In this document: piece after piece, positions 5,668-63,462 of the stretch
How positions within the stretch are numbered: position 1 is the first letter of the stretch
How the letters are laid out: each line of letters begins with the position of its first letter
The notes under the pieces: generated by a model
What the model saw: the letters and a program-made list of their open reading frames with translations, nothing else
Told to the model about the DNA's origin: nothing
Database searches by the model: none
Translations under genes and position numbers: made by a program
IMG/VR virus record: IMGVR_UViG_3300037882_001492
Span: 1 to 64,000 of that record
Direction: 5' to 3' (one strand)
DNA length: 64,000 nucleotides
DNA from: a virus

Positions 5668-5689
5668 GCAATATTATACATACTAGAGC

Positions 5690-7533: not shown

Positions 7534-8060
7534 ATCTTTTTAAATTTAATTTCTTTACGGTTTGGGTGTTTAGCATCTAAAGGATTTTCTTTATTGAATT
7601 TTACAGCACCGGGAGACTTTTCGTTTTTGTAATCTTTAAATTCCTTATTCCATCTAGACTTTCTCGTTGCTAGTCTTTTTTTCATTACTTTCTTAAAAGA
7701 TCCCATATCGCCTTTCTTTGCGAAAGATGCCATTTTTCTGATTGATCTTTTTTGTCCTAATGAACCTTCTGTAATTCCTGCTCTTTTTTTCATATAGCGA
7801 AGGTGCAAGTTATTCATATGTTTCTGTTCTGCTTTATATTTTTTATGTCCCTGTCCTTTAGCTTGATCCGCCGCATGGTGTTTCCCTCTATTAAACGATT
7901 TATCTAAAGCTGAAAAGGAATCCATTGTAAGTTTTTTCACAGAAGTTCTTTTCCAAGCTTTAGAACTATGTTTAGCTTGAAGTTCAGGACTAGCTTTTTT
8001 AGAAACCATTCTTCTTAAAGACCTGTTGAAACCTTCCTTCATTAAATTAATTTTAATCAT
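7530..8060 (-). CDS. Lys/Arg-rich protein with TEGS/KEGF motifs
   Basis: 176 residues from ATG 8058-8060. A longer in-frame start at 8165 would overlap the previous gene by about 100 nt, so 8060 is preferred: it lies 4 nt after that gene's stop and has CTAAATAA four nt before the ATG. The protein begins MIKINLMKEGFNRSLRRM and contains GITEGSLGQKRSIRKM near residues 90-105. Composition is dominated by Lys, Arg and Ser. It is a paralogue-like member of the basic set at 6474-9727. Function unknown; internal capsid protein suspected. Confidence 0.55.
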   Translation of the reverse strand: MIKINLMKEGFNRSLRRMVSKKASPELQAKHSSKAWKRTSVKKLTMDSFSALDKSFNRGKHHAADQAKGQGHKKYKAEQKHMNNLHLRYMKKRAGITEGSLGQKRSIRKMASFAKKGDMGSFKKVMKKRLATRKSRWNKEFKDYKNEKSPGAVKFNKENPLDAKHPNRKEIKFKKI

Positions 8061-9884: not shown

Positions 9885-10043
9885 TTAATTTTATTTATTT
9901 GATAGAATTTTATAAGTTTAATAGAATGATATAGAGTGCTATTAATAAAGATACTATCTTTGATATATTAGGCTGGCAAGTTGATAATGAGTCTCAACAA
10001 CGCGAGATTTTCCGGTGAAGATTGTGTGAAGAGAAGAAAAGGC

Positions 10044-10072
10044 TTGCATTTCATCCAATCTTAGGGTACAAT
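10044..10072 (+). promoter_or_regulatory. Sigma70-type early promoter, predicted leaderless
   Basis: TTGCAT (10044-10049), 17-nt spacer, TACAAT (10067-10072), then 6 nt to ATG at 10079. Just upstream is TGAAGATTGTGTGAAGA, which recurs before other early promoters. Initiation about 6-7 nt after the -10 would fall on the ATG. Confidence 0.7.
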
Positions 10073-10078
10073 CGTGGC

Positions 10079-10315
10079 ATGGAAACGGAACGCATTGAAG
10101 TAGATTCCACCATGCTTAAGAGCCTGGAATACGACCATACGACCGGGACGCTAACGGCGCATTTCAAGGGATTACCTTATGCGTATTACAATGTTCCGGT
10201 AATGGTTTTCAATGCGTTGAAGCACGCCGCAGAGAATGGCGAGTCTGTTGGAAAATTGTTCCACGCTACGATCCTTAAGGCCGGATACGAATATTGCCGC
10301 ATGGAGGAAAACTAA
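10079..10315 (+). CDS. KTSC-domain protein
   Basis: 78 residues. It shows the KTSC pattern: a short N-terminus with VDSTMLKSLEYDHTTGTL, then HFKGLPYAYYNVPVMVFNALKHAAENGESVGKLFH. The family is small, widespread in phages and bacteria, and of unclear biochemical role. The start at 10079 is chosen over an upstream in-frame codon because a sigma70-like promoter ends 6 nt before it. The stop TAATG overlaps the next start. G+C-richer codons than the late genes. Confidence 0.75.
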   Translation: METERIEVDSTMLKSLEYDHTTGTLTAHFKGLPYAYYNVPVMVFNALKHAAENGESVGKLFHATILKAGYEYCRMEEN

Positions 10316-10473
10316 TGAAACCTTTTCGATTCCTTTCTATCTTATTGGCATCTATTGTATTTCTAACCACTAGGTTTGCGTTTGAGGGTAGTGCTGCCGA
10401 GTCTTATATTGCTTTCTTGATTGCTTTATTTGGGGTCGAAAACATGACGAAAGAGAAATATGAAGATGAATAG
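10315..10473 (+). CDS. Small membrane protein
   Basis: 52 residues beginning MKPFRFLSILLASIVF. There are two hydrophobic segments (about 5-18 and 30-40) and an acidic tail ending KYEDE. Its ATG overlaps the KTSC stop (TAATG), which supports coupled translation. Its last bases, TATGAAGATGAATAGTGC, recur exactly at the end of the next gene (10910-10927). No homologue recognised. Confidence 0.55.
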   Translation: MKPFRFLSILLASIVFLTTRFAFEGSAAESYIAFLIALFGVENMTKEKYEDE

Positions 10474-10498
10474 TGCTTGCAATACGGCTCCCGATGCT

Positions 10499-10924
10499 AT
10501 GGAAGTAATCCTAGACAATCGTAAGGATGGTCGTTCTATTGCATTGAAAGGAGATAAAGGAGCCGTAGAATTTTATTGGTATAAACCGATGGAAGGATGG
10601 GAACATCATTTCAGCGGCGGAATAGAATGCCATAGCAAGAATCCCCGTAGTCAGAACGATAGATCCTTACAAGAATGGAATAAGGAACATTGTGAAAAGA
10701 AAGGTATTCCATATGATCGTTCTAAGGATGATTGTATTCTAACTGGTGGAGAATGTTATTGTGACGGTACTAGCTTAGGTGCTATTAACTTTGCAGAAAG
10801 TTATGGCATTAAACCTAGCGATACGATTGATAGTCTTGAAAAGCGTGATATGATTATCCATATTGTGCGTATGCTTAAAGGCTATTATCATTCTTGGTTT
10901 AACGAAGATTATGAAGATGAATAG
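10499..10924 (+). CDS. Hypothetical phage protein with conserved GG(E/P)CYCDGTSL segment
   Basis: 141 residues from ATG 10499. The pattern FSGGIECHSK ... CILTGGECYCDGTSLGAINFAESYG resembles a family I associate with actinobacterial phages (HxS-GG-x-C-W-H-D-G-S-S-L). An upstream start at 10460 is possible, but bases 10474-10498 look like a copy of the promoter segment found before 11026 (CTTGCAAT...CTCCCGAT), so the later ATG is preferred. The gene ends with the same 18-nt sequence as its left neighbour. Function unknown. Confidence 0.6.
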   Translation: MEVILDNRKDGRSIALKGDKGAVEFYWYKPMEGWEHHFSGGIECHSKNPRSQNDRSLQEWNKEHCEKKGIPYDRSKDDCILTGGECYCDGTSLGAINFAESYGIKPSDTIDSLEKRDMIIHIVRMLKGYYHSWFNEDYEDE

Positions 10925-10975
10925 TGCGATTTCGCACACTCTCAGCCGATTGTGAAGATTGTGTGAAGAAAAGAA
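10924..10975. promoter_or_regulatory. Palindromic early-region module, copy 1
   Basis: GTGCGATTTCGCAC (10924-10937) is followed by ACTCTCAGC and TGTGAAGATTGTGTGAAGA. It lies directly after a stop codon and before the promoter at 10991. Related copies occur at 11782, 12395 and 14443. It could be an operator or an RNA hairpin (5-bp stem, AUUU loop). Confidence 0.55.
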
Positions 10976-10990
10976 GAAGAGAAATAGAGC

Positions 10991-11019
10991 TTGCAATCGC
11001 TCCCCGATAGCAGTATAAT
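10991..11019 (+). promoter_or_regulatory. Sigma70-type early promoter
   Basis: TTGCAA (10991-10996), 17-nt spacer, TATAAT (11014-11019), 6 nt, then ATG at 11026. It has the same geometry as the promoters before 10079, 11942, 12489 and 12724. Confidence 0.75.
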
Positions 11020-11025
11020 GGTGGC

Positions 11026-11046
11026 ATGAGCGAGCAGCACCGCTAA
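11026..11046 (+). CDS. Possible six-residue leader peptide
   Basis: ATG AGC GAG CAG CAC CGC TAA lies exactly 6 nt after the TATAAT box, so the predicted transcript would begin on this ATG. It precedes the 66-residue gene at 11075 by 28 nt. It may be a leader peptide or only the former start of the gene. Confidence 0.25.
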   Translation: MSEQHR

Positions 11047-11074
11047 CGCTCAAACCCAAAACAAACCTAAGAGC

Positions 11075-11275
11075 ATGAAACTCTCGCCCACTACTAATCA
11101 GAATAAGCGCCGTTGCCGTTCTGTTCGTATCTTTCGCGTTACGGACGGATTTCAAGTCGAAGTAACCGAAAAGAAAAATGGTATCGTGATTCCGTTCAAC
11201 TTCCATACTCGCGCTCAGGCTCATGCTTTCGTAAACCGTAACCTGCACCTGATCGGAGCCTATCGCGCTCGCTAG
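11075..11275 (+). CDS. Small basic hypothetical protein
   Basis: 66 residues, basic. It has an N-terminal TTNQNKRRCRSVRIF, a central VTEKKNGIVIPFNFHTRAQAHAF and an HLIGAYRAR tail. It looks like a compact beta-rich domain. AAGAGC lies just before the ATG, a poor ribosome site. G+C-rich codons. Early-gene position suggests a host-takeover role, but nothing specific is visible. Confidence 0.6.
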   Translation: MKLSPTTNQNKRRCRSVRIFRVTDGFQVEVTEKKNGIVIPFNFHTRAQAHAFVNRNLHLIGAYRAR

Positions 11276-11292
11276 TTTTCATGCTTAGGAAA

Positions 11293-11323
11293 GGGGATTA
11301 GAATGGTCTAGTCCCCTATTTCT
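11293..11323 (+). terminator. Rho-independent terminator
   Basis: GGGGATTAGA (11293-11302) pairs with TCTAGTCCCC (11307-11316), with one G-U pair and an ATGG loop, followed by TATTTCTT. Nearly the same hairpin recurs at 12352. Confidence 0.7.
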
Positions 11324-11342
11324 TAAGAATGGAGTAAAACAA

Positions 11343-11660
11343 ATGAAAATGGCCCTTACTAAAAAGACGCTGCATACTCTCACGCTTCAATCGGAGAATG
11401 AAGATATCTTGAAGAAGATCGCGGATTATGCTGCTAATGTGGAAACGCTGCCGGTTACCCTGCACGAATCACAAGTTTGTAGTTTGCTTCTGGCCGTTTC
11501 TTCTGCATTGTATACTTATAACCGTAGTGGCGAGACGATGAAGATTCCGCTTATTAGGGAGATTTTCGGAATCTTTGCTAGGTATCATATCCATATCAGT
11601 CTGTTGGATGCTAAAAATGTCGTCGAATACCTCACTAGTAAGTATATCCATAATGATTAA
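11343..11660 (+). CDS. Hypothetical early protein
   Basis: 105 residues, helical, with a hydrophobic centre (SQVCSLLLAVSSALYTYN). Unlike its neighbours it has a Shine-Dalgarno-like GGAG ten nt before the ATG. It follows a terminator directly, so its transcript must read through or start nearby. No family recognised. Confidence 0.6.
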   Translation: MKMALTKKTLHTLTLQSENEDILKKIADYAANVETLPVTLHESQVCSLLLAVSSALYTYNRSGETMKIPLIREIFGIFARYHIHISLLDAKNVVEYLTSKYIHND

Positions 11661-11738
11661 GTGAGCGTAACCGTTCCCGGTTAGTCTTGAAACTAATAAC
11701 TGGCAATCGTTACATGGCTGCCGCTGCCTAATGCGGAT

Positions 11739-11770
11739 AGGGGGATAGCAATATTCCCCTAATTTCTTTT
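11739..11770 (+). terminator. Rho-independent terminator with GCAA loop
   Basis: AGGGGGATA (11739-11747) pairs with TATTCCCCT (11752-11760) around the tetraloop GCAA, followed by AATTTCTTTT. The 11661-11738 interval before it holds a TAACCG/CGGTTA hairpin and no gene. Confidence 0.7.
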
Positions 11771-11781
11771 GGGAGCTGATA

Positions 11782-11840
11782 GTGTGCGAAATCGCTCATT
11801 TAAAGAAATGCTTGCATTCTAGGCTAGTTTCGTGTATCAT
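11782..11840 (+). promoter_or_regulatory. Palindrome copy plus promoter without obvious gene
   Basis: GTGTGCGAAATCGCTC (11782-11797) is a variant of the early palindrome. It precedes TTGCAT (11812-11817), a 17-nt spacer and TATCAT (11835-11840). The predicted transcript starts near 11847 and runs into the next promoter with only a two-codon ATG-CCC-TAG frame. It may yield a short RNA or serve the gene at 11942. Confidence 0.5.
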
Positions 11841-11906
11841 AGGGGGATCGCCACAAGTCTCATGCCCTAGCCTGAAAAAAAAATGGAGAAAACTAGGTCT
11901 AAAGGC

Positions 11907-11935
11907 TTGACAAGGTGCCAACAATCTGATACAAT
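11907..11935 (+). promoter_or_regulatory. Consensus sigma70 promoter, predicted leaderless
   Basis: TTGACA (11907-11912), 17-nt spacer, TACAAT (11930-11935), 6 nt (AGGAAC), ATG at 11942. The spacing places transcription start at the ATG. Confidence 0.75.
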
Positions 11936-11941
11936 AGGAAC

Positions 11942-12334
11942 ATGACGCAAGAAACTCAATCTAATCCCTCCGGCCCCGCTAAGCGGTTCCGGTCCCCTAA
12001 TCGCCCTAAGTCCGAGCGGCTGGCAGAAGCTCAAGCTAAAGCTGCTCGCTTGGCTGCTAGTGTCGCTGCTCAAGAATGCTCGGAACATCCCGAAGTTCAA
12101 GCGATTGACGCTCAGATCAAGGAAGCGAATAAGACCGTTATCAATCTCACCCGTCACGCTAAAGAAGGCGTTGAGAATGCGGAAAACTTTGATAAGCGAG
12201 CGGCAGAATGGCGCGAGCGGGCCGCTACTGCTAATCAGGCTCTTCCCGCTGCTAAGGATACTTTGTCGGCCCTTAAGGAACAGCGCCGGGCCGTTATCGC
12301 TAGCCTTGCACAAGGGGGCGCTATCGAATCCTAA
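11942..12334 (+). CDS. Alanine-rich coiled-coil early protein
   Basis: 130 residues, rich in Ala, Glu, Lys and Arg, with a heptad-like helical stretch from about 25 to 120 (SERLAEAQAKAARLAASVA, NFDKRAAEWRERAATAN). The N-terminus is Pro/Ser-rich and likely disordered. Codons are strikingly G+C-rich (GCT, CGG) relative to the late genes, consistent with adaptation to a GC-richer host or recent acquisition. Function unknown. Confidence 0.65.
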   Translation: MTQETQSNPSGPAKRFRSPNRPKSERLAEAQAKAARLAASVAAQECSEHPEVQAIDAQIKEANKTVINLTRHAKEGVENAENFDKRAAEWRERAATANQALPAAKDTLSALKEQRRAVIASLAQGGAIES

Positions 12335-12351
12335 CTAGGATATTTCATAGA

Positions 12352-12386
12352 AAGGGGATTAGGACGGCCTAGTCCCTTATTTCTAT
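12352..12386 (+). terminator. Rho-independent terminator
   Basis: AAGGGGATTAGG and CCTAGTCCCTT form an imperfect stem followed by ATTTCTATTG. It is a sister of the hairpin at 11293. Confidence 0.65.
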
Positions 12387-12394
12387 TGTTTCGG

Positions 12395-12481
12395 GTGAGC
12401 GATTTCGCACACTCTCAGCTCCGTGTGAAGATTGTGTGAAGATAATAAGTAGTTGCATTCGGATGGCGAGTATGGTATAAT
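12395..12481 (+). promoter_or_regulatory. Palindromic module copy 3 and promoter
   Basis: GTGAGCGATTTCGCAC (12395-12410), ACTCTCAGCT and TGTGAAGATTGTGTGAAGA repeat copy 1. They are followed by TTGCAT (12453-12458), a 17-nt spacer and TATAAT (12476-12481). ATG follows 7 nt later at 12489. Confidence 0.7.
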
Positions 12482-12488
12482 CAACGGT

Positions 12489-12662
12489 ATGAGTAAAAAA
12501 GACTACATCGCACTCGCTGAGATTCTAAAGAAACGAGAACCATTCATTAGCGATTATCAATTTAGTCATTTGTTGAATGATCTTATGGCGTATATGATTA
12601 AAGATAACCCTAACTTTGATAAAGATAAGTTTATGGATGCTATCTATAACTTGCCGGTTTGA
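12489..12662 (+). CDS. Small hypothetical phage protein (MSKKDYIALAEIL family)
   Basis: 57 residues. The N-terminal MSKKDYIALAEILKK and C-terminal DNPNFDKDKFMDAIYNL match a very common small phage family of unknown function. The start is set by the promoter, whose TATAAT ends 7 nt before this ATG; an upstream in-frame ATG would lie inside the promoter. Confidence 0.7.
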   Translation: MSKKDYIALAEILKKREPFISDYQFSHLLNDLMAYMIKDNPNFDKDKFMDAIYNLPV

Positions 12663-12688
12663 CTTCTGCTATTTTTAGAAGTTTACGC

Positions 12689-12717
12689 TTGACTTCGACG
12701 CTTGACTTTGGTACAAT
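12689..12717 (+). promoter_or_regulatory. Sigma70 promoter, predicted leaderless
   Basis: TTGACT (12689-12694), 17-nt spacer, TACAAT (12712-12717), 6 nt, ATG at 12724. The spacer contains a second TTGACT copy. Confidence 0.7.
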
Positions 12718-12723
12718 GATAGC

Positions 12724-13428
12724 ATGACGATTAAACTCTCTAGTCCTGGTAAAATGCCATGCTACACTTGGAGCATTCCGGCATTTGATACTTGTCCTGG
12801 TGCAGTTATTGACTTTTCATCTTACGATGGTCAATTGAAGAATTGGTCTAAGTTTAAGCGTAAGATGAAGAAAACTAATCAAGTAGATGCTTGTAAAGGA
12901 TGCTATGCTCAATATGGTCATTATACCTTTCCTGGGTCTGCCAATCTTCGTAAGCATAATCTAAAGGATTGGAAACGCAAGAATTGGGTTAAGGATATGG
13001 TAAAGGCTATTAAGCATATGCCATATTTCCGATTCTTTGATAGTGGGGATATCTATTGTGTTGAATTGGCTATTAAGATTGAACAAATCGTAAAAGCCTG
13101 TCCCGATACTAAGTTTTGGATTCCCACCCGTTCCCATAAGATCAAACTAATAAAAAATGTTATTGACCGCCTCAACCATCTTACTAATTGCGTTGTTCGC
13201 ATTTCCTCTGATTCTGTTATTGGTGGGATTGTGGACTATGCGACTAACTCAACGATTGTGCCGAGCAATTCGGTAAAATCAAAACCTAATTTCCTCGTTT
13301 GTCAATCATTTAATCGTGAGGGCAAATGCGGAGATTGTCGAGCCTGTTGGAACAAAACCATTAAAACCATTGCATATCCCGCTCACGGGATTGTAATGAA
13401 ATCTGTTCTCAAGAAATTGGAAGTGTAA
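12724..13428 (+). CDS. gp88-family protein
   Basis: 234 residues. It shows the phage gene-product-88 family pattern: N-terminal MPCYTWSIPAFDTCPG, ACKGCYA with Cys 57 and 60, YFRFFDSGDIY, PTRSHK and C-terminal CGDCRACW. The cysteine pairs suggest a metal or cluster site, but the biochemical role of the family is not established as far as I know. It has its own promoter immediately upstream. Confidence 0.7.
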   Translation: MTIKLSSPGKMPCYTWSIPAFDTCPGAVIDFSSYDGQLKNWSKFKRKMKKTNQVDACKGCYAQYGHYTFPGSANLRKHNLKDWKRKNWVKDMVKAIKHMPYFRFFDSGDIYCVELAIKIEQIVKACPDTKFWIPTRSHKIKLIKNVIDRLNHLTNCVVRISSDSVIGGIVDYATNSTIVPSNSVKSKPNFLVCQSFNREGKCGDCRACWNKTIKTIAYPAHGIVMKSVLKKLEV

Positions 13429-14418: not shown

Positions 14419-14442
14419 ACTATGAAATCGCATACTGTAATG

Positions 14443-14470
14443 GTGTGCGATTTCGCACACTCTCAGCTCT
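14443..14470. promoter_or_regulatory. Palindromic module, best copy
   Basis: GTGTGCGATTTCGCACAC (14443-14460) has perfect 8-bp arms around TT, followed by TCTCAGCTCT. Here the TGTGAAGATTG half of the module is missing. Confidence 0.55.
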
Positions 14471-18858: not shown

Positions 18859-19176
18859 TTACATCACACTCATAGTAGAGTGTTTAACAACCGTGTTATC
18901 ATTATCAATCCAATAGATTGCTTTTTTATCAAAATCCAAAGTAATCACCCCATCAATTGCATGTTCCAAGAACAAGCATTCTGTAATAAATCTGCTATAG
19001 TAAAATCCTGTCACAAGATCGAAACTGAATTTCAATCCAGATTCATACATTTCATCCGCAATGTTTACCAAATCTTCTTTAGTAAGAAGATGAGTTTCCG
19101 TATCCATATATGGTGCTTCGCAATTCATTAGAATTTTTCGTGCTTTCCAACACATCGGTACTTCTCTAAGTTTCAT
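18859..19176 (-). CDS. Hypothetical protein
   Basis: 105 residues starting MKLREVPMCWKARKIL. A helical N-terminal half (TKEDLVNIADEMYESGL) is followed by a beta-rich end (GVITLDFDKKAIYWIDNDN). It starts within the last codons of the sigma-like gene (11-nt overlap) and ends 1 nt before the broken gene. Unknown function. Confidence 0.5.
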   Translation of the reverse strand: MKLREVPMCWKARKILMNCEAPYMDTETHLLTKEDLVNIADEMYESGLKFSFDLVTGFYYSRFITECLFLEHAIDGVITLDFDKKAIYWIDNDNTVVKHSTMSVM

Positions 19177-19786
19177 AATAAATGTCCTGTAATTTGTTTT
19201 TGATTGAAGTTATTAGTTTGTTTACTTCGTATGAAGTGGTATTTAATTCTTTAGCGATTTTAGTAACATGAACCTTATTGTTAGGTTTGAAAAAGCCTAG
19301 ATCACCTAACACTAATTCGATTAATTGCTGTTCCTTTGGATCAAATTCAATTCCATTAAGGAATGAATCCTTTGGAATGAATTGTAATTTATCGTTAATC
19401 CACTCAGGATAATCAACTGTAAAAATTTCCTCAGTTTCTTTATTTTTACTTTTAATAGAAAGTCTAGAATCTCGCGGCACCAAAACTCCACCGACTGTTT
19501 CAGAACTTTTTCTGATTCTCATGCCGATGGTATTCTTAGAATTCCAAATGATAGTTTTGGCATACCGATGAAATCCAGGTTCTTCCCAAACAATATCGAA
19601 AGTAGTGTTTTCAATTTCACAAAATCTAACGATACCTTTCAAAAGCATTGCTTTCAATTCTTGGATAGAATCCTCTAATCCATAGCAATACTTATCAAAG
19701 TAAATCCTAGAAGCGGCGAAAGTGATTAGTTTTCCATACTTTTCTTGAACCTTATTCCATTGTTCGTCTGTAAGACTCTTACTCAT
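19166..19786 (-). CDS. Putative phage sigma-like transcription factor
   Basis: 206 residues from ATG 19786. The first half has a region-2-like pattern (YGLEDSIQELKAMLLKGIVRF, then GFHRYAKTIIWNSKNTIGMRIRK). The C-terminus has a helix-turn-helix-like EFDPKEQQLIELVL...VTKIAKELNTTSYEVNKLITSIKNKL, as in region 4. In T4-like phages a gp55-type sigma reads TATAAATA late promoters, and such boxes occur in this window, so a late-sigma role is inferred. The start is chosen because TTGACA-17-TAGAAT ends 10 nt upstream; an upstream in-frame start lies inside that promoter. Confidence 0.5.
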   Translation of the reverse strand: MSKSLTDEQWNKVQEKYGKLITFAASRIYFDKYCYGLEDSIQELKAMLLKGIVRFCEIENTTFDIVWEEPGFHRYAKTIIWNSKNTIGMRIRKSSETVGGVLVPRDSRLSIKSKNKETEEIFTVDYPEWINDKLQFIPKDSFLNGIEFDPKEQQLIELVLGDLGFFKPNNKVHVTKIAKELNTTSYEVNKLITSIKNKLQDIYYET

Positions 19787-27833: not shown

Positions 27834-29369
27834 TTATAGAACGACCGCTTCGATTTCCGAAATCATTTTCTCGGCTGAATTCTCACCCTGAATAAACTTT
27901 GTGATTTGTTCTGTAACTGACGGTGTGAAACCTGCAATATTCAGAACATTTCTATTATTGGTGGGCGCAACGGTATGATTTCCCATAACAATGTTATGAA
28001 GAACAATCTTAATATTAGGATTCTGTTTAATCAATTGCTTGATTAGAGTGTTTGAATTATCGTCATAGCGTTCATCAACCCACGCTTCATTGTCTGAAAT
28101 CACATAAACAAAATCAGGATTATGTTTTAGTGCATGTTCAAAACAAAGTTTTGTATAAGTCGCTCCACCGTTATGAAGTTTGTCTGCGAAGGTAAGCGGA
28201 TTACTGTAAGTCTGATACTTAACTTCGTTCAAACTACTGTTAAAAGTACCAACATACGGATTTTCAACACTTCTAGCCATCATTGCACCAAACAACGCTG
28301 CTGCTTGAGTACACATAACAGTAGAGTCTTTCTTGCCAGTATATCCAGTAACAGGCTGATTCATCGAACCGGAACGGTCAATATAAATTGATCCCTTTGA
28401 CGGCATTTCACCAACAGAATAAGTTTCCATGCTAATTTCAAAAGCAGTTTGAAGTGCTTTCATAATTGAAACCGGAATTCCATCAGCGGCTTTGAATGCT
28501 GAGAAATATTGGAACGGGAATTGATTTGCTTTAATAATCTCTTCTCGGTCAACCAAACGATTTGCAACAATCTTAACAATCGAAGAATCGTTAAATGCAC
28601 CTTTACGATTCAACATGTTCAAATTCATACGCAAGGCATGATAAGAACAGTTTTGCAACCATTCATTCCAAAACTCAACAGGTAAAGTTTCAATGTTGTC
28701 CATATGGCGGAAATCTAATTTCGCCAACAGACTCCAATCAGCATTTTTGCCGTTTCGTGCTCTACGAAGTTCACTTAGAATTTTAATACGACTCTTAGCA
28801 GTATCAAATCCAAGAATATACTTTGCTACAGCATTTTTACTTCCTTCAAACTTCGGGTGGGAAAGAAGAATCAAGTCTTTCAACGAAGGATCGTTTCCAA
28901 TCGAATCATTCAACAGTTGAATGTCGCTACGATTTTCAATCCAGCGTTTAACAAGTTTCTTCGGAGACGATCCAAGTGAAACTCGACCAACTTTACCGGA
29001 ACGAATTACTTGAACATAGTTACGAAGCATCTTTCCGTTAGTGATAACTCGCGGAAATGCTTTCTTAACGGCTTCCATCGCACTACCTTTAGATAAGGCG
29101 GCTAAAATGTATGCCGGAGCATCCTTAATAGCACCATTTTGCTTTGCATAAACAGCAGTTTTAGCAGCGAAAATCGGATCAACACCTTGAATTGCTTCTT
29201 GGAGTTTTTCAACCAACGCATCACCGCTATTGTAATAGGTTCCATTCAAGAAACCATTCATTGCAAGCATGACAAGGTTTTCTTTACCTTTAAGTTTAAA
29301 TGCCGGAGCGCCAGCCTCATTTACAGAATTAGGCTTGGAACGGGCAGAAGCAAAAGTCTTTGTGTTCAT
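27834..29369 (-). CDS. rsr: Ro60/Rsr orthologue (TROVE + vWA domains)
   Basis: 511 residues from ATG 29369 (an upstream in-frame start overlaps the promoter region). The N-terminal TROVE ring of HEAT-like helices spans about 25-315 (KGKENLVMLAMNGFLNGTY, AAKTAVYAKQNGAIKDAPAY). The C-terminal von Willebrand A domain has a MIDAS motif YIDRSGSM (D331, S333, S335), the later GGATYT and the VISDNEAW strand. Ro60 binds misfolded RNA ends in its ring and Y RNAs on its rim, and in bacteria works with exonucleases in RNA decay. TATAAT lies 9 nt before the ATG. Y-RNA-like genes follow immediately. Confidence 0.9.
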   Translation of the reverse strand: MNTKTFASARSKPNSVNEAGAPAFKLKGKENLVMLAMNGFLNGTYYNSGDALVEKLQEAIQGVDPIFAAKTAVYAKQNGAIKDAPAYILAALSKGSAMEAVKKAFPRVITNGKMLRNYVQVIRSGKVGRVSLGSSPKKLVKRWIENRSDIQLLNDSIGNDPSLKDLILLSHPKFEGSKNAVAKYILGFDTAKSRIKILSELRRARNGKNADWSLLAKLDFRHMDNIETLPVEFWNEWLQNCSYHALRMNLNMLNRKGAFNDSSIVKIVANRLVDREEIIKANQFPFQYFSAFKAADGIPVSIMKALQTAFEISMETYSVGEMPSKGSIYIDRSGSMNQPVTGYTGKKDSTVMCTQAAALFGAMMARSVENPYVGTFNSSLNEVKYQTYSNPLTFADKLHNGGATYTKLCFEHALKHNPDFVYVISDNEAWVDERYDDNSNTLIKQLIKQNPNIKIVLHNIVMGNHTVAPTNNRNVLNIAGFTPSVTEQITKFIQGENSAEKMISEIEAVVL

Positions 29370-29413
29370 ATTCTTTCTATTATAGTGTTTAAATTTTGAT
29401 TTTGAAAGGGAAA

Positions 29414-40755: not shown

Positions 40756-41340
40756 ATGTTGCGAAACACAGTTGATGAAAACTTAAAAATCCTTGATATT
40801 TTATGGGATTCAGCCGAAATTGGTTTAGCATTAGTAAATCAAGACGGTAAATTTCTTAGAGTTAATCCAAAGTTTTGTACAATGTTGGAATACACGGAAG
40901 GAGAGTTATTAGATAAAACCTTCCATTCTGTCACGCATCCAGATGATTTAACAGCCGACATAAACGCAGCAAAAGAGGTTTCAGACGGTAAAAGAGACAG
41001 TTATATAATGTTTAAAAGATATATCCCAAAAACAGGAGATTGTATAATTTGGGCTAAACTACATGTCGAACCTATTAAACAACAAGATGGAAACTTCTTA
41101 TATTTCTTAAGTCAAACAAGTGAATTTGCAGTTCAAGAACGAATAATTTCTACAAAAGTTGTTAAACCAGAAGAGATTGGAATAATGGATATCGTTAAAT
41201 TCCTCCTAAAACGATGGAAGATCGTCATTGCGGTTATTTCAATGACGATCTCTTTAGTTTATGGCGCTAGTGTATTCTATAACAAACTAAACACCGTTAT
41301 TGACGATCACTCAAGACCCACTCACATTGAATCCAAGTAA
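40756..41340 (+). CDS. PAS-domain membrane protein
   Basis: 194 residues. A PAS fold spans about 12-130: ILWDSAEIGLALVNQDGKFLRVN, FCTMLEYTEGELLDKTFHSVTHPDDL, GDCIIWAKLHVEPIKQQDGN. It is followed by a single membrane span (about 160-180, IVIAVISMTISLVYGASVF) and a short tail. A sensory PAS without kinase or cyclase output is unusual in a phage. It runs rightward behind a TATAAATA box, and its 3' end overlaps the Clp-like gene by 30 nt. Confidence 0.7.
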   Translation: MLRNTVDENLKILDILWDSAEIGLALVNQDGKFLRVNPKFCTMLEYTEGELLDKTFHSVTHPDDLTADINAAKEVSDGKRDSYIMFKRYIPKTGDCIIWAKLHVEPIKQQDGNFLYFLSQTSEFAVQERIISTKVVKPEEIGIMDIVKFLLKRWKIVIAVISMTISLVYGASVFYNKLNTVIDDHSRPTHIESK

Positions 41341-42609
41341 TTTCTTGTTTTCATAAAGCGGAATCATACTCTTGGTTTTAGCAGGAAGTTTCTTTTCAAG
41401 AGAGTATTCAGCCAATTTCAAACAAACATTGTTTTTAATAAATCTTCGAATATTTCTTGCTCCATATTCTTCCGAATAAGAGTTTTCAACAACATAATCT
41501 ATTAAATCAGAATCAATGTTTACAGAAGTAGGAAGTTCTTTCTCTAAGTGAAGTTTGGCAATTGCAAAAGCATCTTCTTTTGAAAGTTGTCTAAAGTGAA
41601 TAATCTTATCAAATCTGTTGATTAACTCAGGAGCAAAGTCTTTCTTAATTGCTTCATCAATAACTTCTCTACCGTTCACTTCATTGGCATTCTTGACGAA
41701 TCCAATCTCTTTCTTATTCTTCTTATCCAACATATCTTTTACACCAATATTAGATGTAAAGATAAAGATTGATTTGGTAAAATCATGTGTTGCACTCTTG
41801 TTGTCAGTAATCTTACCTGAATCTAAGATTCCAAGAAGTAATTGTTGTAATCTTTCTGATGCTTTTTCAAACTCATCAAATACGATTACCCATTCATTTG
41901 ACTTCTCTGATAAAGTCGAAATAAACGACTTCTCATCATGTCCAATATATCCAGGAGGGCTTCCTAAGAGTTTATTCTGTTCATGTGCTGTAGCATATTC
42001 ACCACAGTTTACAATATAAATTCGTTCTGGGTCATCCAGGAAATACTTGGCAACCATTTTAGCGGTTTCAGTTTTTCCTATTCCAGTAGACCCTACAAAC
42101 AATGCTGAAATCATTGGCGAAAAGTCTGTTGCCTTTAATTTCAGTAAATCAGTAATCTCTGTCAAGGCTTCCGCTTGACCAATAACATTCTGATTAAGGA
42201 CAGTAACCAAAGACTCAAAGAACTTACTATTCTTCTTCTTAGTCTTGGTTTCCTTTTGAGCAGATTTGGCTTCTGCAAACAGACTTGTTCTCTCTCTATG
42301 ATTATAGGTCATAGCGAAAGTTTCAACCGCTAATGCAGGATAAATCTCACAAATCTCATGGTAAATAGCCTCATCAATCTTTTCTTTACCAGTCCTAATT
42401 ACAAGATCGTCGCAAATTCTAGTGACATAATCCACATAGGTCTTAAGCGTATCTTCTTTGACTAGCATTAATAACATTTCGTAATAAGCAGTAAACTCAG
42501 CAAGAGTTAAAGCTTTGATTTTTACAAATTTGTTAGCAGTTTCGTCAGGAATGATGTAGTTTACGGCGTTAGTTGGTGTTTTGGAGGTCTTCGAAGGTGA
42601 ATTTTTCAT
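41311..42609 (-). CDS. Clp/HSP100-like AAA+ ATPase
   Basis: 432 residues. One AAA+ module of ClpA/B D2 type: Walker A GSTGIGKTETAK (173-184), pore loop GYIG (220-223), Walker B VIVFDEFEKA (241-250), sensor IFTSN, INRFD and C-terminal SEEYGARNIRRFI. The N-terminal 25-105 (IKALTLAEFTAYYEMLLML...) resembles the T4-like baseplate hub assembly domain. It may remodel virion or host proteins. The start overlaps the next gene by 41 nt. Confidence 0.7.
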   Translation of the reverse strand: MKNSPSKTSKTPTNAVNYIIPDETANKFVKIKALTLAEFTAYYEMLLMLVKEDTLKTYVDYVTRICDDLVIRTGKEKIDEAIYHEICEIYPALAVETFAMTYNHRERTSLFAEAKSAQKETKTKKKNSKFFESLVTVLNQNVIGQAEALTEITDLLKLKATDFSPMISALFVGSTGIGKTETAKMVAKYFLDDPERIYIVNCGEYATAHEQNKLLGSPPGYIGHDEKSFISTLSEKSNEWVIVFDEFEKASERLQQLLLGILDSGKITDNKSATHDFTKSIFIFTSNIGVKDMLDKKNKKEIGFVKNANEVNGREVIDEAIKKDFAPELINRFDKIIHFRQLSKEDAFAIAKLHLEKELPTSVNIDSDLIDYVVENSYSEEYGARNIRRFIKNNVCLKLAEYSLEKKLPAKTKSMIPLYENKKLLGFNVSGS

Positions 42610-43666: not shown

Positions 43667-44647
43667 TTACAGAAGTGCTAATTCGCCTTTTGAAATCTTC
43701 TCAACAAGAATTGTTTCTAAGGCTTCTTTTCTATGCTTTGCCGAATCACCTTTAATAGAATACCATCCCTTTGTCGGCGAGACTACTGCACCGTCTTTCA
43801 TAAGAAGATCACATAAACCTACATTTCGATCAAGACCTTTATTGAAAATTAATCTGAAATCACATTCTTGATAAGGTGTGGAAACTTTATTCTTTTTGTT
43901 CTTAACTACACCTTCAATACCCATAGGTTTACCGTTCTCGTCTACTAAAGTTCCATTAGTTTTGCTTGATGCTGTCTCTAACGAAACTGCACAATAGTAT
44001 TCTAATGACTTTCCACCACCTGCTTTAGTTCTTGGATCGCCAAACATTACTCCAATCTTTGATCTAAATTGATTGATAATCAAGAGAGCAACATTGTATT
44101 TCTTAATAAAGGTATTAACTCTTCTTAAACATTGTCCTGTAATTTTGGCTCTTTGCGCTCCAATAATTATTCCATCGCTATCTTTAAGTTCGTCGGAAAG
44201 TTCTTTATTACATGGAGTAGTTCCGATAGAATCAAATCCAATTACAATAGGAGTCTCTGTATCATGCGAGCGAATCGCTAGAATGACTTTTTCAATAAAT
44301 GCAAAACAAGTCTCAATAGTCTCTGGTTCGCTATAAATTAGTTTAAAAGGATCAACTCCTAATTGACTAGCAAACTCTTTGTTATAAGCATGTTCATTAT
44401 CCACCATTACAGTATGATAACCCTTTGCTTGTGCACCTACAAACGCATGAGTTAAAAAAACTGTTTTAGCAGTTGAAGATTCCCCAAAGATTTCTGTGAT
44501 CCCTCCTATTGGATAACCGCCATCAAACCTTCCTGAAATAATCTTGTTTAATGCTAATGAACCAGAATCCACAAACTCTGAAACTGACTCATCTTCGCTT
44601 AAAACACACGCACCTTCTAAATCCTTAATAATATCCTGAATGCTCAT
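43667..44647 (-). CDS. uvsX: RecA/UvsX-type recombinase
   Basis: 326 residues. P-loop GESSTAKT (55-62, Ala in place of the usual Gly before Lys), Walker B IVIGFDSIGTTP, and the KxxGQCLRR/LLIINQFRSKIG region of RecA. It forms presynaptic filaments for recombination-dependent replication and repair in T4-like phages. TATAAT lies 7 nt before the ATG, so its mRNA may be leaderless. The small gene at 44656 ends in that promoter. Confidence 0.85.
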   Translation of the reverse strand: MSIQDIIKDLEGACVLSEDESVSEFVDSGSLALNKIISGRFDGGYPIGGITEIFGESSTAKTVFLTHAFVGAQAKGYHTVMVDNEHAYNKEFASQLGVDPFKLIYSEPETIETCFAFIEKVILAIRSHDTETPIVIGFDSIGTTPCNKELSDELKDSDGIIIGAQRAKITGQCLRRVNTFIKKYNVALLIINQFRSKIGVMFGDPRTKAGGGKSLEYYCAVSLETASSKTNGTLVDENGKPMGIEGVVKNKKNKVSTPYQECDFRLIFNKGLDRNVGLCDLLMKDGAVVSPTKGWYSIKGDSAKHRKEALETILVEKISKGELALL

Positions 44648-44655
44648 TCAGTATA

Positions 44656-44820
44656 TTATAGCGTATCTTTGTCGGTTTTAGAAGCCTTTTTCGTTGACTT
44701 TTTGTTGGATACATCGCGTACTTTATTTCCGCCGTCTTCCGGTTTGACTTCTACCTTAGACTCTTCTAGTTTTGCTTGTGCAGCAAGAATTCTTGCGGTT
44801 CTTCTATCTCGTAATCTCAT
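44656..44820 (-). CDS. 54-residue basic protein
   Basis: MRLRDRRTARILAAQAKLEE, then a Lys/Ser-rich tail ending in TDKDTL. CTAAATAA lies 3 nt before the ATG, and the stop lies within the UvsX promoter. Probably expressed just ahead of recombinase. Unknown function. Confidence 0.5.
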   Translation of the reverse strand: MRLRDRRTARILAAQAKLEESKVEVKPEDGGNKVRDVSNKKSTKKASKTDKDTL

Positions 44821-60119: not shown

Positions 60120-60125
60120 ATTTTA

Positions 60126-63100
60126 TTATAATTCACAAACCCCATTTTTGCAAGTGTCCACAGAATCTACTACATCGACCAACTCACCTTCGATAATTAA
60201 CTTGTCCAAGTCAACGGTTGCTGGATCAATTCTAGTAAGTGGTTCGTTTCCTCTGCTTCCTGCTTTATAGAAAGTGAAGCCTTTAATATCAGCAGCATAA
60301 GTAGTTAAAGTCTCTTGAATTTCGGGAGTCATTGTAAATGTCTCTGGTAGATTACAAGTTTTTGATACGGCTGAATCAATGAATTGTTGAATAGTGGCTT
60401 GCATTTTAATGTGTTCTTCGGGAGTAACATCGTATGCACCGACTACATGTTCAACATTCTTTCCTTTCAAGTAAAGGTATTTAAACAACGGATCAACTAC
60501 GATCTTTTCATTCCACACACTTCCAACCGTAGTGCGCCATCTACGCTTATAAATCGGAGAAAATATAGGCTCAATTCCTGTTGAAACCCCAAGCACCATT
60601 GCCGTACTTCCAGTAGGAGGAACAGTTAGTAATACCGCGTTTCTTAATCCGTTTAGTCTAATTTCTGTTCTAAGTCTAGCCGGTAAGGTTTTAAAATACT
60701 TCTCTTTTCTGAGTTTAGACCAATCATAAGCCTCAAACGAACCTTTATGTCTAGCCAAATTCATAGATGCTTTATAGGCCTCATATCGAATAGTTTGAAA
60801 CAGCCTTTCAGTAAACTCCAAACATGCCTCGCTACCATAACGATAACCGGCTTTAATTAGCATATAATGAAATCCCATTACCCCTAATCCAATTCTACGA
60901 CTTCGAATACCGGCTTCTTTACATTCTGGAATTGGAAAATGGTTTGCCGTTAAAACATCATCTAAAAATCTAACACCGATTCTAACAGTTCGTGCAAGCT
61001 TTTTCCAATCTATTTCTCCATCATCAGATACCATATTAGATAAATTAATATTTCCTAAACAACAGTTCGAATATGCAGGTAATGGAATTTCGCCACAATT
61101 TGATGTAAAACCATATTCTGTTAAAAATGTATGGGTATTGTCGTCAACGGTTATATCATAAACATCTTCATAAATCTCTGTAGCTTCAACATTAACAATT
61201 CTAAGATAATCTTTCTCTGTTTTTAGTTGTTGATTCACGATGGTTTGCAAAGCTTCGTGTTTTCTCAAATGCGTAAGTGATAATTTTGTGCCTAATTTTT
61301 TCGATTGAGCTTCACAAATATTCACATCGTAGCGAACAAAACTCTTTCCATTTAATAATGAAATAGACTTTCTAACTTGACAAGACACTCCGATACATCG
61401 AAGCAGTTTTTTAACATCAAACGCCAACTTTTCATGGCAAGTAGTTAAATTTACATAATTGCCACTATTTTTAGAGTCAGTTTTTCGAATACAAACATGA
61501 CCGTCAGAAGAAAACAACCCATCCAAATAACCTAAAATAAAATCCTCTGATGCTGTCCAGATACATTCTGGAAGTCCATTCTTTTTACCTCTATGGCCGA
61601 GACTATAAAAATAATCACAAAATTCTTTTGAATTCACATACAATTCATAGCAGCCTTTATTTAATCTTAAACGAGAGATATTTTTTTTCCTGGAATTAAC
61701 AAAATCAGCCACAATATTCGCAATACCGTTTTCTGAATCTTCCTGAGAAAAAATAAACCCATAATAAGGACCGTTCCGTTTGTGGATTCCAGACCACCCA
61801 TCGCCGTAATTCCACCCCAAAACAAAACCTTCTTCGTATGTTAGTGTAGATTTTTTATTTCCAAAATGTGGAGATACGGGATGATAAATCAAATCTCCTA
61901 TCTGGAGGTCAGAAGTTTCCTTTTTTCTTAAATCTCCACAGTCAATTGAAATTTTATTATCTCGCTTACAATTAATATTTCTTGTAATTATAGGCCATTT
62001 ATGGTCAGGAGTGCAAAAGACTTCTGATTTATCATTAAATGTAATTTTATATAATTGTTTATTAATTCCTGATTTAAAAACTTTACACGAAACTAATTCC
62101 CCTTTGTAGTTAACCACTTTCGTATAAGGGGTAGTTTCGGCAAGGTCTTTTATTTTAAACCATCCATTTTCAGAATACACTAGCGTATCCCAACGAAGAG
62201 ACGGGTTTGTTTGTTGCATAGTCTCGAAATAAGATACATTAGTATGAGAATTAGCGAAATCTAAATTATAGATTCCAGGTTCCCCACACTCAGTAGCGTT
62301 TTTCAAAATACTATGCCACAAATCTTTAGCTTTTAATACGGTTTGAACTGGATCTTCGAAAGTATCTTTGAAATGTTTTACATAGTGAAACTTAGCAACT
62401 CCCAAAGCATCTTCGGCGGTTTTAGCAACTACTTTAATACGATCATTGCCTAGTTCAGAAATTCTATTAATTTCAAAAACATAATATCGGACATGCCTTC
62501 CACCAAAGGTAAAATACCACTCCTCATCTTTATGAACCGCTTCCATAAATCTATCTGTAATTGCAACAGAAATATTGAAATTAGTCAGTTCTTTGCGGTC
62601 TAATTTTACATTCAGAAACTCTAATAGATCAGGATGAGTGATATTTAAAATACTCATAAGGGCGACCCTGCGGCTCCGTCCGGCCATTACATGGTTACCG
62701 ATTTCATTAATCATTTTCATAACAGAAATAGAACCCGGAGCAGAGTATTTAATATTTTGAATATCTTCCCCTTTTGGTCTAATTTCACTAAAGTTTAGAC
62801 CCACACCGCCTCCACCACATGAAATCTTATACATGTCGGAAATTGTTTTTCCAATACTGTCAATATTGTCGTTTGGAGTTAACGCATAACAATTCAACAT
62901 ATTGTTATTCAATCTCCCGGCACCAAATAGAATTCTACCTCCTGGACAGAAATCACCTGAATTTATAGCATCGTAGAACTTCCTTTCGTGAACTTCTCGT
63001 TCTTCTAAAGGTTCCGCCATCGCAACCGTTTTTGCAACTCGCTTGGCACAATCTTTCCATTCTTCTTCACCAGGAAAAGCATATTTGTCTTTGAATATTG

Positions 63101-63140
63101 TTTCTGCCAGACTTCCTGGTTGTATAACATAATTACTCAT
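60126..63140 (-). CDS. Ribonucleotide reductase with intein (class II-like)
   Basis: 1004-residue precursor; exteins 1-313 and 682-1004 give a 636-residue reductase. N-terminal GGRILFGAGRLNNNMLNCYAL (Cys84), SCGGGGVGLNFSEIRPKG, NLDFANSHTNVSY, then after splicing TNPCGEIPLPAYSNCCLG (substrate-site Cys682), VPPTGSTAMVLGVSTGIEPIF and a C-terminal CKNGVC redox pair. No small subunit gene is seen, and the layout favours the B12-dependent class II, which is moderate inference. The intein lies at the conserved NP/CGEIP junction. Confidence 0.8.
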   Translation of the reverse strand: MSNYVIQPGSLAETIFKDKYAFPGEEEWKDCAKRVAKTVAMAEPLEEREVHERKFYDAINSGDFCPGGRILFGAGRLNNNMLNCYALTPNDNIDSIGKTISDMYKISCGGGGVGLNFSEIRPKGEDIQNIKYSAPGSISVMKMINEIGNHVMAGRSRRVALMSILNITHPDLLEFLNVKLDRKELTNFNISVAITDRFMEAVHKDEEWYFTFGGRHVRYYVFEINRISELGNDRIKVVAKTAEDALGVAKFHYVKHFKDTFEDPVQTVLKAKDLWHSILKNATECGEPGIYNLDFANSHTNVSYFETMQQTNPSLRWDTLVYSENGWFKIKDLAETTPYTKVVNYKGELVSCKVFKSGINKQLYKITFNDKSEVFCTPDHKWPIITRNINCKRDNKISIDCGDLRKKETSDLQIGDLIYHPVSPHFGNKKSTLTYEEGFVLGWNYGDGWSGIHKRNGPYYGFIFSQEDSENGIANIVADFVNSRKKNISRLRLNKGCYELYVNSKEFCDYFYSLGHRGKKNGLPECIWTASEDFILGYLDGLFSSDGHVCIRKTDSKNSGNYVNLTTCHEKLAFDVKKLLRCIGVSCQVRKSISLLNGKSFVRYDVNICEAQSKKLGTKLSLTHLRKHEALQTIVNQQLKTEKDYLRIVNVEATEIYEDVYDITVDDNTHTFLTEYGFTSNCGEIPLPAYSNCCLGNINLSNMVSDDGEIDWKKLARTVRIGVRFLDDVLTANHFPIPECKEAGIRSRRIGLGVMGFHYMLIKAGYRYGSEACLEFTERLFQTIRYEAYKASMNLARHKGSFEAYDWSKLRKEKYFKTLPARLRTEIRLNGLRNAVLLTVPPTGSTAMVLGVSTGIEPIFSPIYKRRWRTTVGSVWNEKIVVDPLFKYLYLKGKNVEHVVGAYDVTPEEHIKMQATIQQFIDSAVSKTCNLPETFTMTPEIQETLTTYAADIKGFTFYKAGSRGNEPLTRIDPATVDLDKLIIEGELVDVVDSVDTCKNGVCEL
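61098..62201 (-). mobile_element. Intein in ribonucleotide reductase
   Basis: Codons S314 to N681 (368 residues). It starts SLRWDTLVYSENGWFKIKDL (Ser1), has block B EVFCTPDHKW (373-382), homing-endonuclease-like LGWNYGDGW and ILGYLDGLFSSDGHVCI, and ends THTFLTEYGFTSN before Cys+1. The endonuclease motifs are degenerate, so homing may be lost while splicing residues remain. Confidence 0.75.
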
Positions 63141-63462
63141 TTACTTCTGCAAGCTCCGGTATATTTGGTAACTCTACATCAGTAATAACCGCATAAACAT
63201 CATCATCGAAAAGAACAACCCAATTTGGATCTAATCTTCGTGTTTGGAATCGTCTGATAGCATTTCCTTCAAAGGTAATTAAACTTCCAACTTTAATTGC
63301 TGGATTACATTTCTCACCTACAGATAATACAACCGCTTCTCCAATATGTTTATCTAATTCAGAATCAGGAAGTGCGATCCCTACTGACGATTTAAAATTG
63401 CTTGCATGTCTGTTTTGTAAAACTCTGACAACAAGCCTGTTTCCAATTGCTTGAATTTCCAT
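63133..63462 (-). CDS. GroES/gp31-like co-chaperonin
   Basis: 109 residues, the length of Cpn10/gp31. IGNRLVVRVLQNRHASN start, mobile-loop-like SSVGIALPDSELDKHIG, GEAVVLSVGEKCNPAIKVGSLITFEG and DDDVYAVITDVELP end match the GroES fold. T4 gp31 replaces host GroES to fold the major capsid protein. It overlaps the reductase start by 8 nt. Confidence 0.7.
   Translation of the reverse strand: MEIQAIGNRLVVRVLQNRHASNFKSSVGIALPDSELDKHIGEAVVLSVGEKCNPAIKVGSLITFEGNAIRRFQTRRLDPNWVVLFDDDVYAVITDVELPNIPELAEVNE

Follow-up and report, generated by a model that had tools for sequence, protein, structure and literature searches.

The 64,000-nucleotide viral window analysed here contains, in its early region, five host-type promoters that very probably place the start of the mRNA at the AUG itself, so that the messages would be leaderless within a two-class promoter strategy spanning the whole lineage. 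The label "early" follows from the sigma70-type sequence of these promoters.

Five promoters lie a fixed distance from an ATG

All five promoters of the form TTGNNN-17-TA[T/C]AAT have an ATG 6-7 nt beyond the -10 hexamer. This arrangement, proposed in an earlier note on this DNA, is borne out by the exact coordinates and by shuffled sequence.

10044..10072, + strand: P1, TTGCAT-17-TACAAT-6-ATG 10079
10991..11019, + strand: P2, TTGCAA-17-TATAAT-6-ATG 11026
11907..11935, + strand: P3, TTGACA-17-TACAAT-6-ATG 11942
12453..12481, + strand: P4, TTGCAT-17-TATAAT-7-ATG 12489
12689..12717, + strand: P5, TTGACT-17-TACAAT-6-ATG 12724
10015..10038, + strand: 24-nt repeat upstream of P1, with copies at 10952-10975 before P2 and 12425-12448 before P4
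11292..11317, + strand: terminator-like hairpin, with a near-copy at 12353-12378

When the 5-kb region was shuffled 2,000 times, promoter-at-ATG sites numbered 0.0065 on average and at most 1, against the 5 observed; shuffles of the whole window gave a mean of 0.05. What rises above chance is only the geometry relative to the ATG, not promoter matches as such: generic matches in the first 20 kb are at chance level (70 found, 67.8 expected). A conventional promoter scan taken alone is uninformative. Of 27 promoter matches found across three phages' early modules, 12 are followed by an ATG at 6-7 nt. Because P1, P2 and P4 have the 24-nt upstream repeat in common, the five promoters are partly duplicates of one another and not fully independent.

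Start codons, base signature and conserved spacing support leaderless messages

The frames behind the promoters are as follows, with positions in the related phages G001, G002 and G006 given where needed (the studied phage is G000).

10079..10315, + strand: predicted leaderless gene, 78-aa KTSC-domain protein (PF13619; Pfam E 8.8e-10)
11026..11046, + strand: 6-codon ORF (MSEQHR and stop), with which the P2 RNA is predicted to begin
11075..11275, + strand: 66-aa early protein; homologue at G006 985, predicted leaderless
11942..12334, + strand: predicted leaderless gene, 130-aa protein of unknown function, with homologues in G006 and G002
12489..12662, + strand: predicted leaderless gene, 57 aa; likely homologue at G006 313, also predicted leaderless
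12724..13428, + strand: predicted leaderless gene, 234-aa GP88-family protein (PF17338), from family and homologue comparison

Inspection of these frames revealed that four of the five ATGs (10079, 11942, 12489 and 12724) open real genes; the exception, 11026, opens six codons that are not in the reading frame of the real gene (11075-11275), and represents either a leader peptide or a chance ATG. The earlier note's claim that these genes have no Shine-Dalgarno (SD) site was right and extends to the genome scale: no SD signal was found genome-wide in this phage or its two nearest lineages, and in G000, G001 and G006 pairing upstream of the starts is energetically weaker than background. An AGGAA that directly abuts ATG 11942 is too close to it for SD function. 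Base -1 is C in 10 of 14 sites and a pyrimidine in 12 of the 14, an initiator-like pattern; ordinary starts in G000 have A at this position in 64% of cases.

The 6-7 nt spacing is kept in relatives at 24-46% protein identity. It is seen between GP88 at 12724 and its counterpart at G002 16246- (45% identity; the homologue in G001/G002 has a -10 TAGAAT likewise 6 nt before the ATG), between 11942 and the predicted leaderless G006 1774 (24% identity), between 12489 and G006 313 (a weak match, E 0.002), and in the 11075 family at G006 985. G006 itself has four promoters of this geometry, three of them with perfect hexamers. Judged from sequence, leaderless transcription at the five promoters, as the earlier note had proposed, is strongly supported by the conserved spacing, the pyrimidine(-1)/A(+1) signature, the SD-less genome and the second promoter class described below. 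Start selection by sigma70 is flexible, and leaders of 1-3 nt would therefore also be compatible with this geometry. The architecture is not obligatory either, since the G002 homologues of two families (11942, at 10920-; possibly 11075, at 11241, a distant homologue with AAGGAG) have leaders of about 50 nt with an SD-like AGGAG.

These leadered homologues would also suit a reading in which the promoters are real and the adjacent ATGs incidental, true starts lying downstream on leadered mRNAs; 11026 fits this reading well, with its six-codon ORF and the real gene 11075 following after 49 nt. For the set as a whole it is improbable: in the 10079 product the KTSC domain sets in at residue 10, so that translation must start at or near 10079, the GP88 N-terminus aligns with its relatives from ATG 12724 on, and the position of the ATG is conserved across 24-46% identity. 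A chance arrangement in AT-rich DNA, for which the chance-level number of generic promoter matches might speak, has almost no probability left, being refuted by the shuffles and also by the relatives and an independent set of contigs.

A second class of boxes lacks a -35 element

In 34 of 844 genes of the phage family, where 0.27 would be expected, the ATG is preceded at 4-6 nt by a -35-less CTATWATA box. CTATAATA is the top positional 8-mer overall, and its permutations, other than shifted copies of the box, gave no positional peak. The box is kept in orthologues of UvsX (4 of 5), the gp55-like protein (6 of 7) and UvsW (4 of 5), and the diverged G006 has CCTTTTATA at an equal offset. In G000 the class is thinner than in its relatives, with two genes at 4-6 nt and others at 2, 8, 12 and 16-17 nt.

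44654..44661, - strand: -35-less CTATAATA box, 6 nt before ATG 44647 of the RecA/UvsX-like gene 43667-44647
5672..5678, - strand: TATAATA box, 4 nt before ATG 5667
29378..29385, - strand: CTATAATA box, 8 nt before ATG 29369, the likely true start of the Ro60-like gene 27834-29369
60124..60130, - strand: TATAATA box with TTGCAA-17, 4 nt before ATG 60119
genome 69129-69515: gp55-like small protein with sigma domain 2 only (Sigma70_r2 and predicted fold)
19166..19786, - strand: sigma-like ORF (phrog_351, E 4e-6) behind TTGACA-17-TAGAAT, about 10 nt from ATG 19786; candidate second phage sigma factor

The gp55-like protein, of sigma-region-2 type and conserved in the family, co-occurs with the CTATWATA boxes. 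All nine of its members match Sigma70_r2; alignment against PDB sequences gave weak E-values and no significant match, so that fold comparison was needed. Its predicted fold is that of sigma region 2: the Foldseek matches are nearly all to this region, with E-values all above 0.1, and T4 gp55 (7d7c) has the highest query TM among the matches listed, 0.65. Many phage genes, among them those for MCP, sheath, tube, DnaB and gp32, lack a promoter next to them and presumably lie inside operons.

A proposed route of expression and its known counterparts

We propose that each of the five sites is a promoter of host type (sigma70/sigmaA) with its -10 one initiation distance (6-7 nt) ahead of the ATG, and that RNA polymerase would start the mRNA on the A of the AUG or within 1-2 nt of it. 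Ribosomes, probably 70S particles on the 5'-terminal AUG, would then translate the small proteins with neither leader nor SD. One promoter per gene and several hairpin terminators would give short, mostly monocistronic leaderless messages, while CTATWATA boxes, at an equivalent offset and probably read by the gp55-like phage sigma, would precede the first genes of other transcription units.

The T4 late promoter consensus is TATAAATA. The boxes here depart from it, reading CTATAATA or CTATTATA, and CCTTTTATA in G006. Leaderless phage genes such as lambda cI from pRM are single cases, whereas the present phage is predicted to follow a genome-wide and lineage-wide design; leaderless initiation in lambda has been noted (PMC3160421). 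Late promoters of T4 and gp55 (PMC2988020) likewise combine an 8-bp TATA box without a -35, placed roughly a helical turn ahead of the start site, and a small sigma-domain-2 protein. The T4 late box, however, precedes a leader, whereas CTATWATA abuts the ATG; T4 also uses the co-activator gp33 and the clamp gp45, counterparts of which were not identified here.

A -10 box 6-7 bp before the ATG is also found in Deinococcus-Thermus (PMC12340547) and Actinobacteria (PMC3160421), where the mRNA is predicted, and in Deinococcus shown (PMC12340547), to start at or near the ATG. Those bacteria do not need a -35 and also have SD-led genes (in D. radiodurans a GGAG ribosome-binding motif exists beside the -10 motif; PMC12340547), whereas the phage has a strong -35 and no SD signal. 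Leaderless phage transcripts are themselves known: in Thermus phage phiYS40, as summarised in PMC3594737, the middle and late transcripts are leaderless, so that much of the mRNA of that phage is leaderless, as is predicted here from sequence. In phiYS40 this concerns the middle and late classes, in a leaderless-rich host, whereas early-type sigma70 promoters and a T4-late-like TATA box are used here by a T4-related phage. A search of the open-access literature found no description of a T4-like lineage that fuses both promoter classes to start codons.

The phage is T4-related and its genes lend no support to a Deinococcus or mycobacterial host

Homologues of T4-type portal, TerL, MCP and sheath identify a T4-related myovirus, with head and tail genes of T4 type. 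The Deinococcus or mycobacterial host suggested earlier found no support, as the comparisons linked the phage neither to phages of those hosts nor to their genomes. Phages of Streptomyces, Rhodococcus, Gordonia, Vibrio, Myxococcus, Thermus and a haloarchaeon carry Ro60-type genes, which are thus not host-diagnostic. For the early GP88 protein, the closest matches with an assigned host are in Acinetobacter phages (40%); for the terminase they are in Flavobacterium phages (34%), beside an unassigned huge phage (33%). Protein similarity to cultured phages is too remote to identify the host, and the matches suggest differing ones. Two pattern-based scans (tail tube, MCP), run over 84,980 genomes of bacteria and archaea, found no relatives, megablast against phages gave no match, and an Rfam search of the window returned tRNAs only.

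That the phage merely mirrors a host rich in leaderless genes, for instance Deinococcus or a mycobacterium, is an idea encouraged by the -10 motif found 6-7 bp before nearly one third of D. radiodurans ORFs (PMC12340547) and by the abundance of leaderless genes in Actinobacteria and Deinococcus-Thermus (PMC3160421). It has little probability given that the phage lacks any SD signal, whereas D. radiodurans also uses GGAG sites; the same analysis did show an SD signal in Thermus phage phiLo. The nearest cultured protein matches and the scatter of Ro60 genes over many hosts argue in the same direction, as do the leaderless-type promoters found in many unrelated contigs. A genome without SD signal, with A-rich starts and a CTATWATA class that has no -35, could instead suggest that the AT-rich boxes are translation elements (A/U-rich standby or S1-binding sites in an SD-less host) and not -10 elements. 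This is very improbable: promoters of the early class include a -35 hexamer at exactly 17 nt, the 8-mer CTATAATA is fixed and permutations unrelated to it show no peak, the gp55-like sigma is conserved in the family, and the D. radiodurans motif at the equal position is a promoter that a ribosome-binding site cannot replace (PMC12340547).

Promoter-on-ATG geometry in other phages and its implications

Returning to promoters that place the mRNA start on the AUG, it is about an even call that a deep T4-related lineage runs its expression largely on leaderless messages, with both promoter classes fused to start codons and no SD, in an uncultivated host whose own translation is probably SD-free or leaderless-tolerant, and that this geometry is widespread and little recognised among environmental phages. 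The promoter-on-ATG arrangement in relatives and many environmental phages suggests translation that bypasses the usual ribosome-binding leader. Should transcription start on the AUG, 30S-SD initiation would be bypassed, which could protect translation when leadered initiation is limited, and promoter strength alone would set protein output. The system offers a testable case for the persistence of leaderless initiation in bacteria, and a rule for annotation, by which the true start is the ATG that follows a promoter box at 4-7 nt.

Outside the lineage, the GP88 homologues L011-L017 combine a promoter with a short leader containing GGAG, so that GP88 alone does not carry the architecture. A search for further early modules through the 11942 family returned only G002 again, and TTGACA-type leaderless promoters were not seen in most MCP-family contigs, which may lack the early regions. 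For a contig with five leaderless-type promoters, distant blastn matched tRNA genes only.

Among unrelated viral contigs gathered on other grounds, for promoters at 16-17 nt, the other strong sigma70 promoters peak sharply at exactly 6 nt from the ATG (29, against about 2 at neighbouring distances), which suggests that leaderless phage mRNAs are common beyond the few hosts studied. The distances in these contigs are two-peaked, at 6 nt and then at about 19-35 nt, and resemble the leaders of Lactococcus cremoris, which measure either less than 5 nt or about 40 nt with a gap between (PMC10986495); those are lengths of measured RNA, whereas the contig values are promoter-to-ATG distances only.

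Early promoters are placed directly before start codons

All five promoters that the earlier note had described (P1-P5, ahead of the ATGs at 10079, 11026, 11942, 12489 and 12724, respectively) were confirmed in the window sequence, each with its -10 box one initiation distance (6-7 nt) before the ATG. Exact matches to TTGN20TA[TC]AAT-N6/7-ATG number five in this 5-kb region, compared with 0.0065 on average, and at most 1, across 2,000 shuffles, whereas promoter-like matches as such show no excess over chance; the signal thus lies in position relative to the ATG. A 24-nt upstream repeat common to P1, P2 and P4, together with a terminator-like hairpin common to two early units, indicates that these units partly arose by duplication.

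The reading of these ATGs as gene starts holds for four: 10079 opens a KTSC-domain protein (the domain begins at residue 10), and related phages have homologues of the proteins that begin at 11942, 12489 and 12724. It fails for 11026, which yields only MSEQHR*; this ATG may be there by chance or may start a leaderless leader peptide. The real gene of that unit, 11075-11275, lies 49 nt downstream and out of frame. Its homologue in the related contig G006 is predicted to be directly leaderless, and a possible homologue in another, G002, has a Shine-Dalgarno (SD) leader. Further features of the early region are:

10000-13400, early module, G+C up to 55% (11942-12334) versus 35% for the rest of the genome
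10926-10948 (+), GTGCGA/TCGCAC palindrome element (GCGATTTCGCACACTCTCAGC)
12399-12421 (+), same element
14442-14469 (+), same element
11772-11798 (-), same element
11812-11840 (+), strong promoter TTGCAT-17-TATCAT, no ORF directly downstream

The palindrome element recurs between early units, is possibly a regulator site, and has its core (GTGCGATTTCGCAC) also within an ORF near 7901 of G002. The orphan promoter and a similar one at G006 1236 may belong to small RNA genes.

Spacing and start-site signature in related phages

G001, 101.8 kb long, is for the most part collinear with the phage studied here (G000), and their proteins are about 23-70% identical; close lineages are represented by the fragments G002 and G006. 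Within 1.5 kb, G006 carries three perfect TTGACA-17-TATAAT promoters and one TTGCAT-16-TATAAT, each 6-7 nt from an ATG; five sites like them occur in G002 (7859, 8428, 8947, 9992 and 16246, the last two on the minus strand). Spacing is preserved between homologues starting at 12724/16246 (45% identity), 11942/1774 and 12489/313 (a weakly related pair). In two families, G002 homologues instead have ~50-nt leaders carrying AGGAG, indicating that leaders can be gained or lost. Across the early modules of the three phages, 12 of 27 promoter matches have an ATG at 6-7 nt.

Bacterial transcription favors a pyrimidine at -1 and a purine at +1. At 14 leaderless-type sites the ATG is preceded by C ten times and by T twice, compared with A before 64% of ordinary G000 starts, a match that would place +1 on the A of the ATG. 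Start sites, translation pathway and timing are predictions. The lack of SD sites noted for the early genes extends genome-wide in G000: in G000, G001 and G006 the regions ahead of starts have a weaker mean pairing energy with a generic 16S tail than the coding background. An SD signal is present in more distant family members (G013, G015, G017, G022 and G023) and in Thermus phage phiLo.

A second promoter class and a sigma-like protein

The 118,190-base record, of which the window is the first 64 kb, represents a T4-related myovirus, judged by its terminase, portal, sheath, MCP, gp32-like, UvsW- and RecA/UvsX-like proteins. No other 8-mer upstream of family genes is as position-biased as CTATAATA. 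Counting it and CTATTATA together, 34 of 844 genes have a box whose end lies 4-6 nt ahead of the ATG (0.27 expected), with no -35 element. The box is kept in orthologues of UvsX (4/5), the gp55-like protein (6/7) and UvsW (4/5), and is absent from structural genes inside operons. G006 has CCTTTTATA at the equivalent offset in four genes. This class has fewer members in G000 than in its relatives, and some of the G000 boxes stand 2, 8, 12 or 16-17 nt away from the ATG.

The family encodes a gp55-like protein (124-128 aa; genome 69129-69515), and each of the nine members tested has a match to Sigma70_r2. The AlphaFold model of this sigma-2-like protein (pLDDT 85) matches almost exclusively sigma region 2 structures; among the matches listed, T4 gp55 (7d7c) has the highest query TM-score (0.65), with modest Foldseek E-values. 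T4 late promoters, read by gp55, comprise an 8-bp TATA box one turn before the start and no -35 (PMC2988020); applied here, that geometry would place the start on the AUG. Pairing of particular sigma factors with either promoter class is presumptive. Other encoded features include:

19166-19786, second sigma-like ORF
27834-29369 (-), Ro60-like gene, probably starting at ATG 29369 rather than TTG 29420; nearest relative Myxococcus phage Mx1 (33%)
40756-41340, PAS-domain protein
41311-42609, Clp-type AAA protein
63133-63462, GroES-like co-chaperonin, the last three all in one phage
record 66529-68106 and 68110-69102 (L006, past the window), DNA polymerase I-type gene as two adjoining ORFs, likewise in G001

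There are also 19 tRNAs.

Host and precedent

The Deinococcus or mycobacterial host proposed earlier was not sustained, as leaderless abundance and a Ro60-like protein, on which it was based, are not diagnostic. Bacteroidota promoters diverge from the TTGACA/TATAAT type, and because the G000 early promoters clearly conform to it, a Bacteroidota host is unlikely. Both the leaderless and the SD mode are missing from many Cyanobacteria and Bacteroidetes genomes (PMC3160421). That mRNAs can be leaderless, with the -10 adjoining the ORF, is established for Deinococcus-Thermus (PMC12340547) and Actinobacteria (PMC3160421); the lack of SD signal in G000 argues against hosts that mix leaderless and GGAG-led genes (PMC12340547). 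Leaderless phage mRNA is already known: most middle and late mRNAs of phage phiYS40 are reported to be of this kind (PMC3594737). The open-access literature searched yielded no description of a T4-related lineage with early sigma70 and late-type TATA promoters both fused to start codons, nor of a 6-nt promoter peak in uncultivated phages.

Occurrence across environmental phages

We scanned IMG/VR for perfect promoters with an ATG 6-7 nt away, and with one 16-17 nt away as control. Two-site stretches made up 7 of the 80 matches listed, versus 0 of 80 listed for the control (Fisher P = 0.014). In control contigs, with the selecting promoters removed and remaining promoters scored at ≥10/12 matches, distances peak at 6 nt (29, versus ~2 at neighboring distances), with a second, broad hump ~19-35 nt from the ATG. 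The peak and two-site excess indicate that leaderless-type placement is common in environmental phages rather than private to this window. L. cremoris leaders are either <5 nt or ~40 nt (PMC10986495), a gap of the same kind as that in these promoter-to-ATG distances. Three unrelated viral contigs, L329 (four sites), L410 (five) and L457 (four), likewise hold multiple promoters with an ATG at 6-7 nt, in each case within <14 kb.
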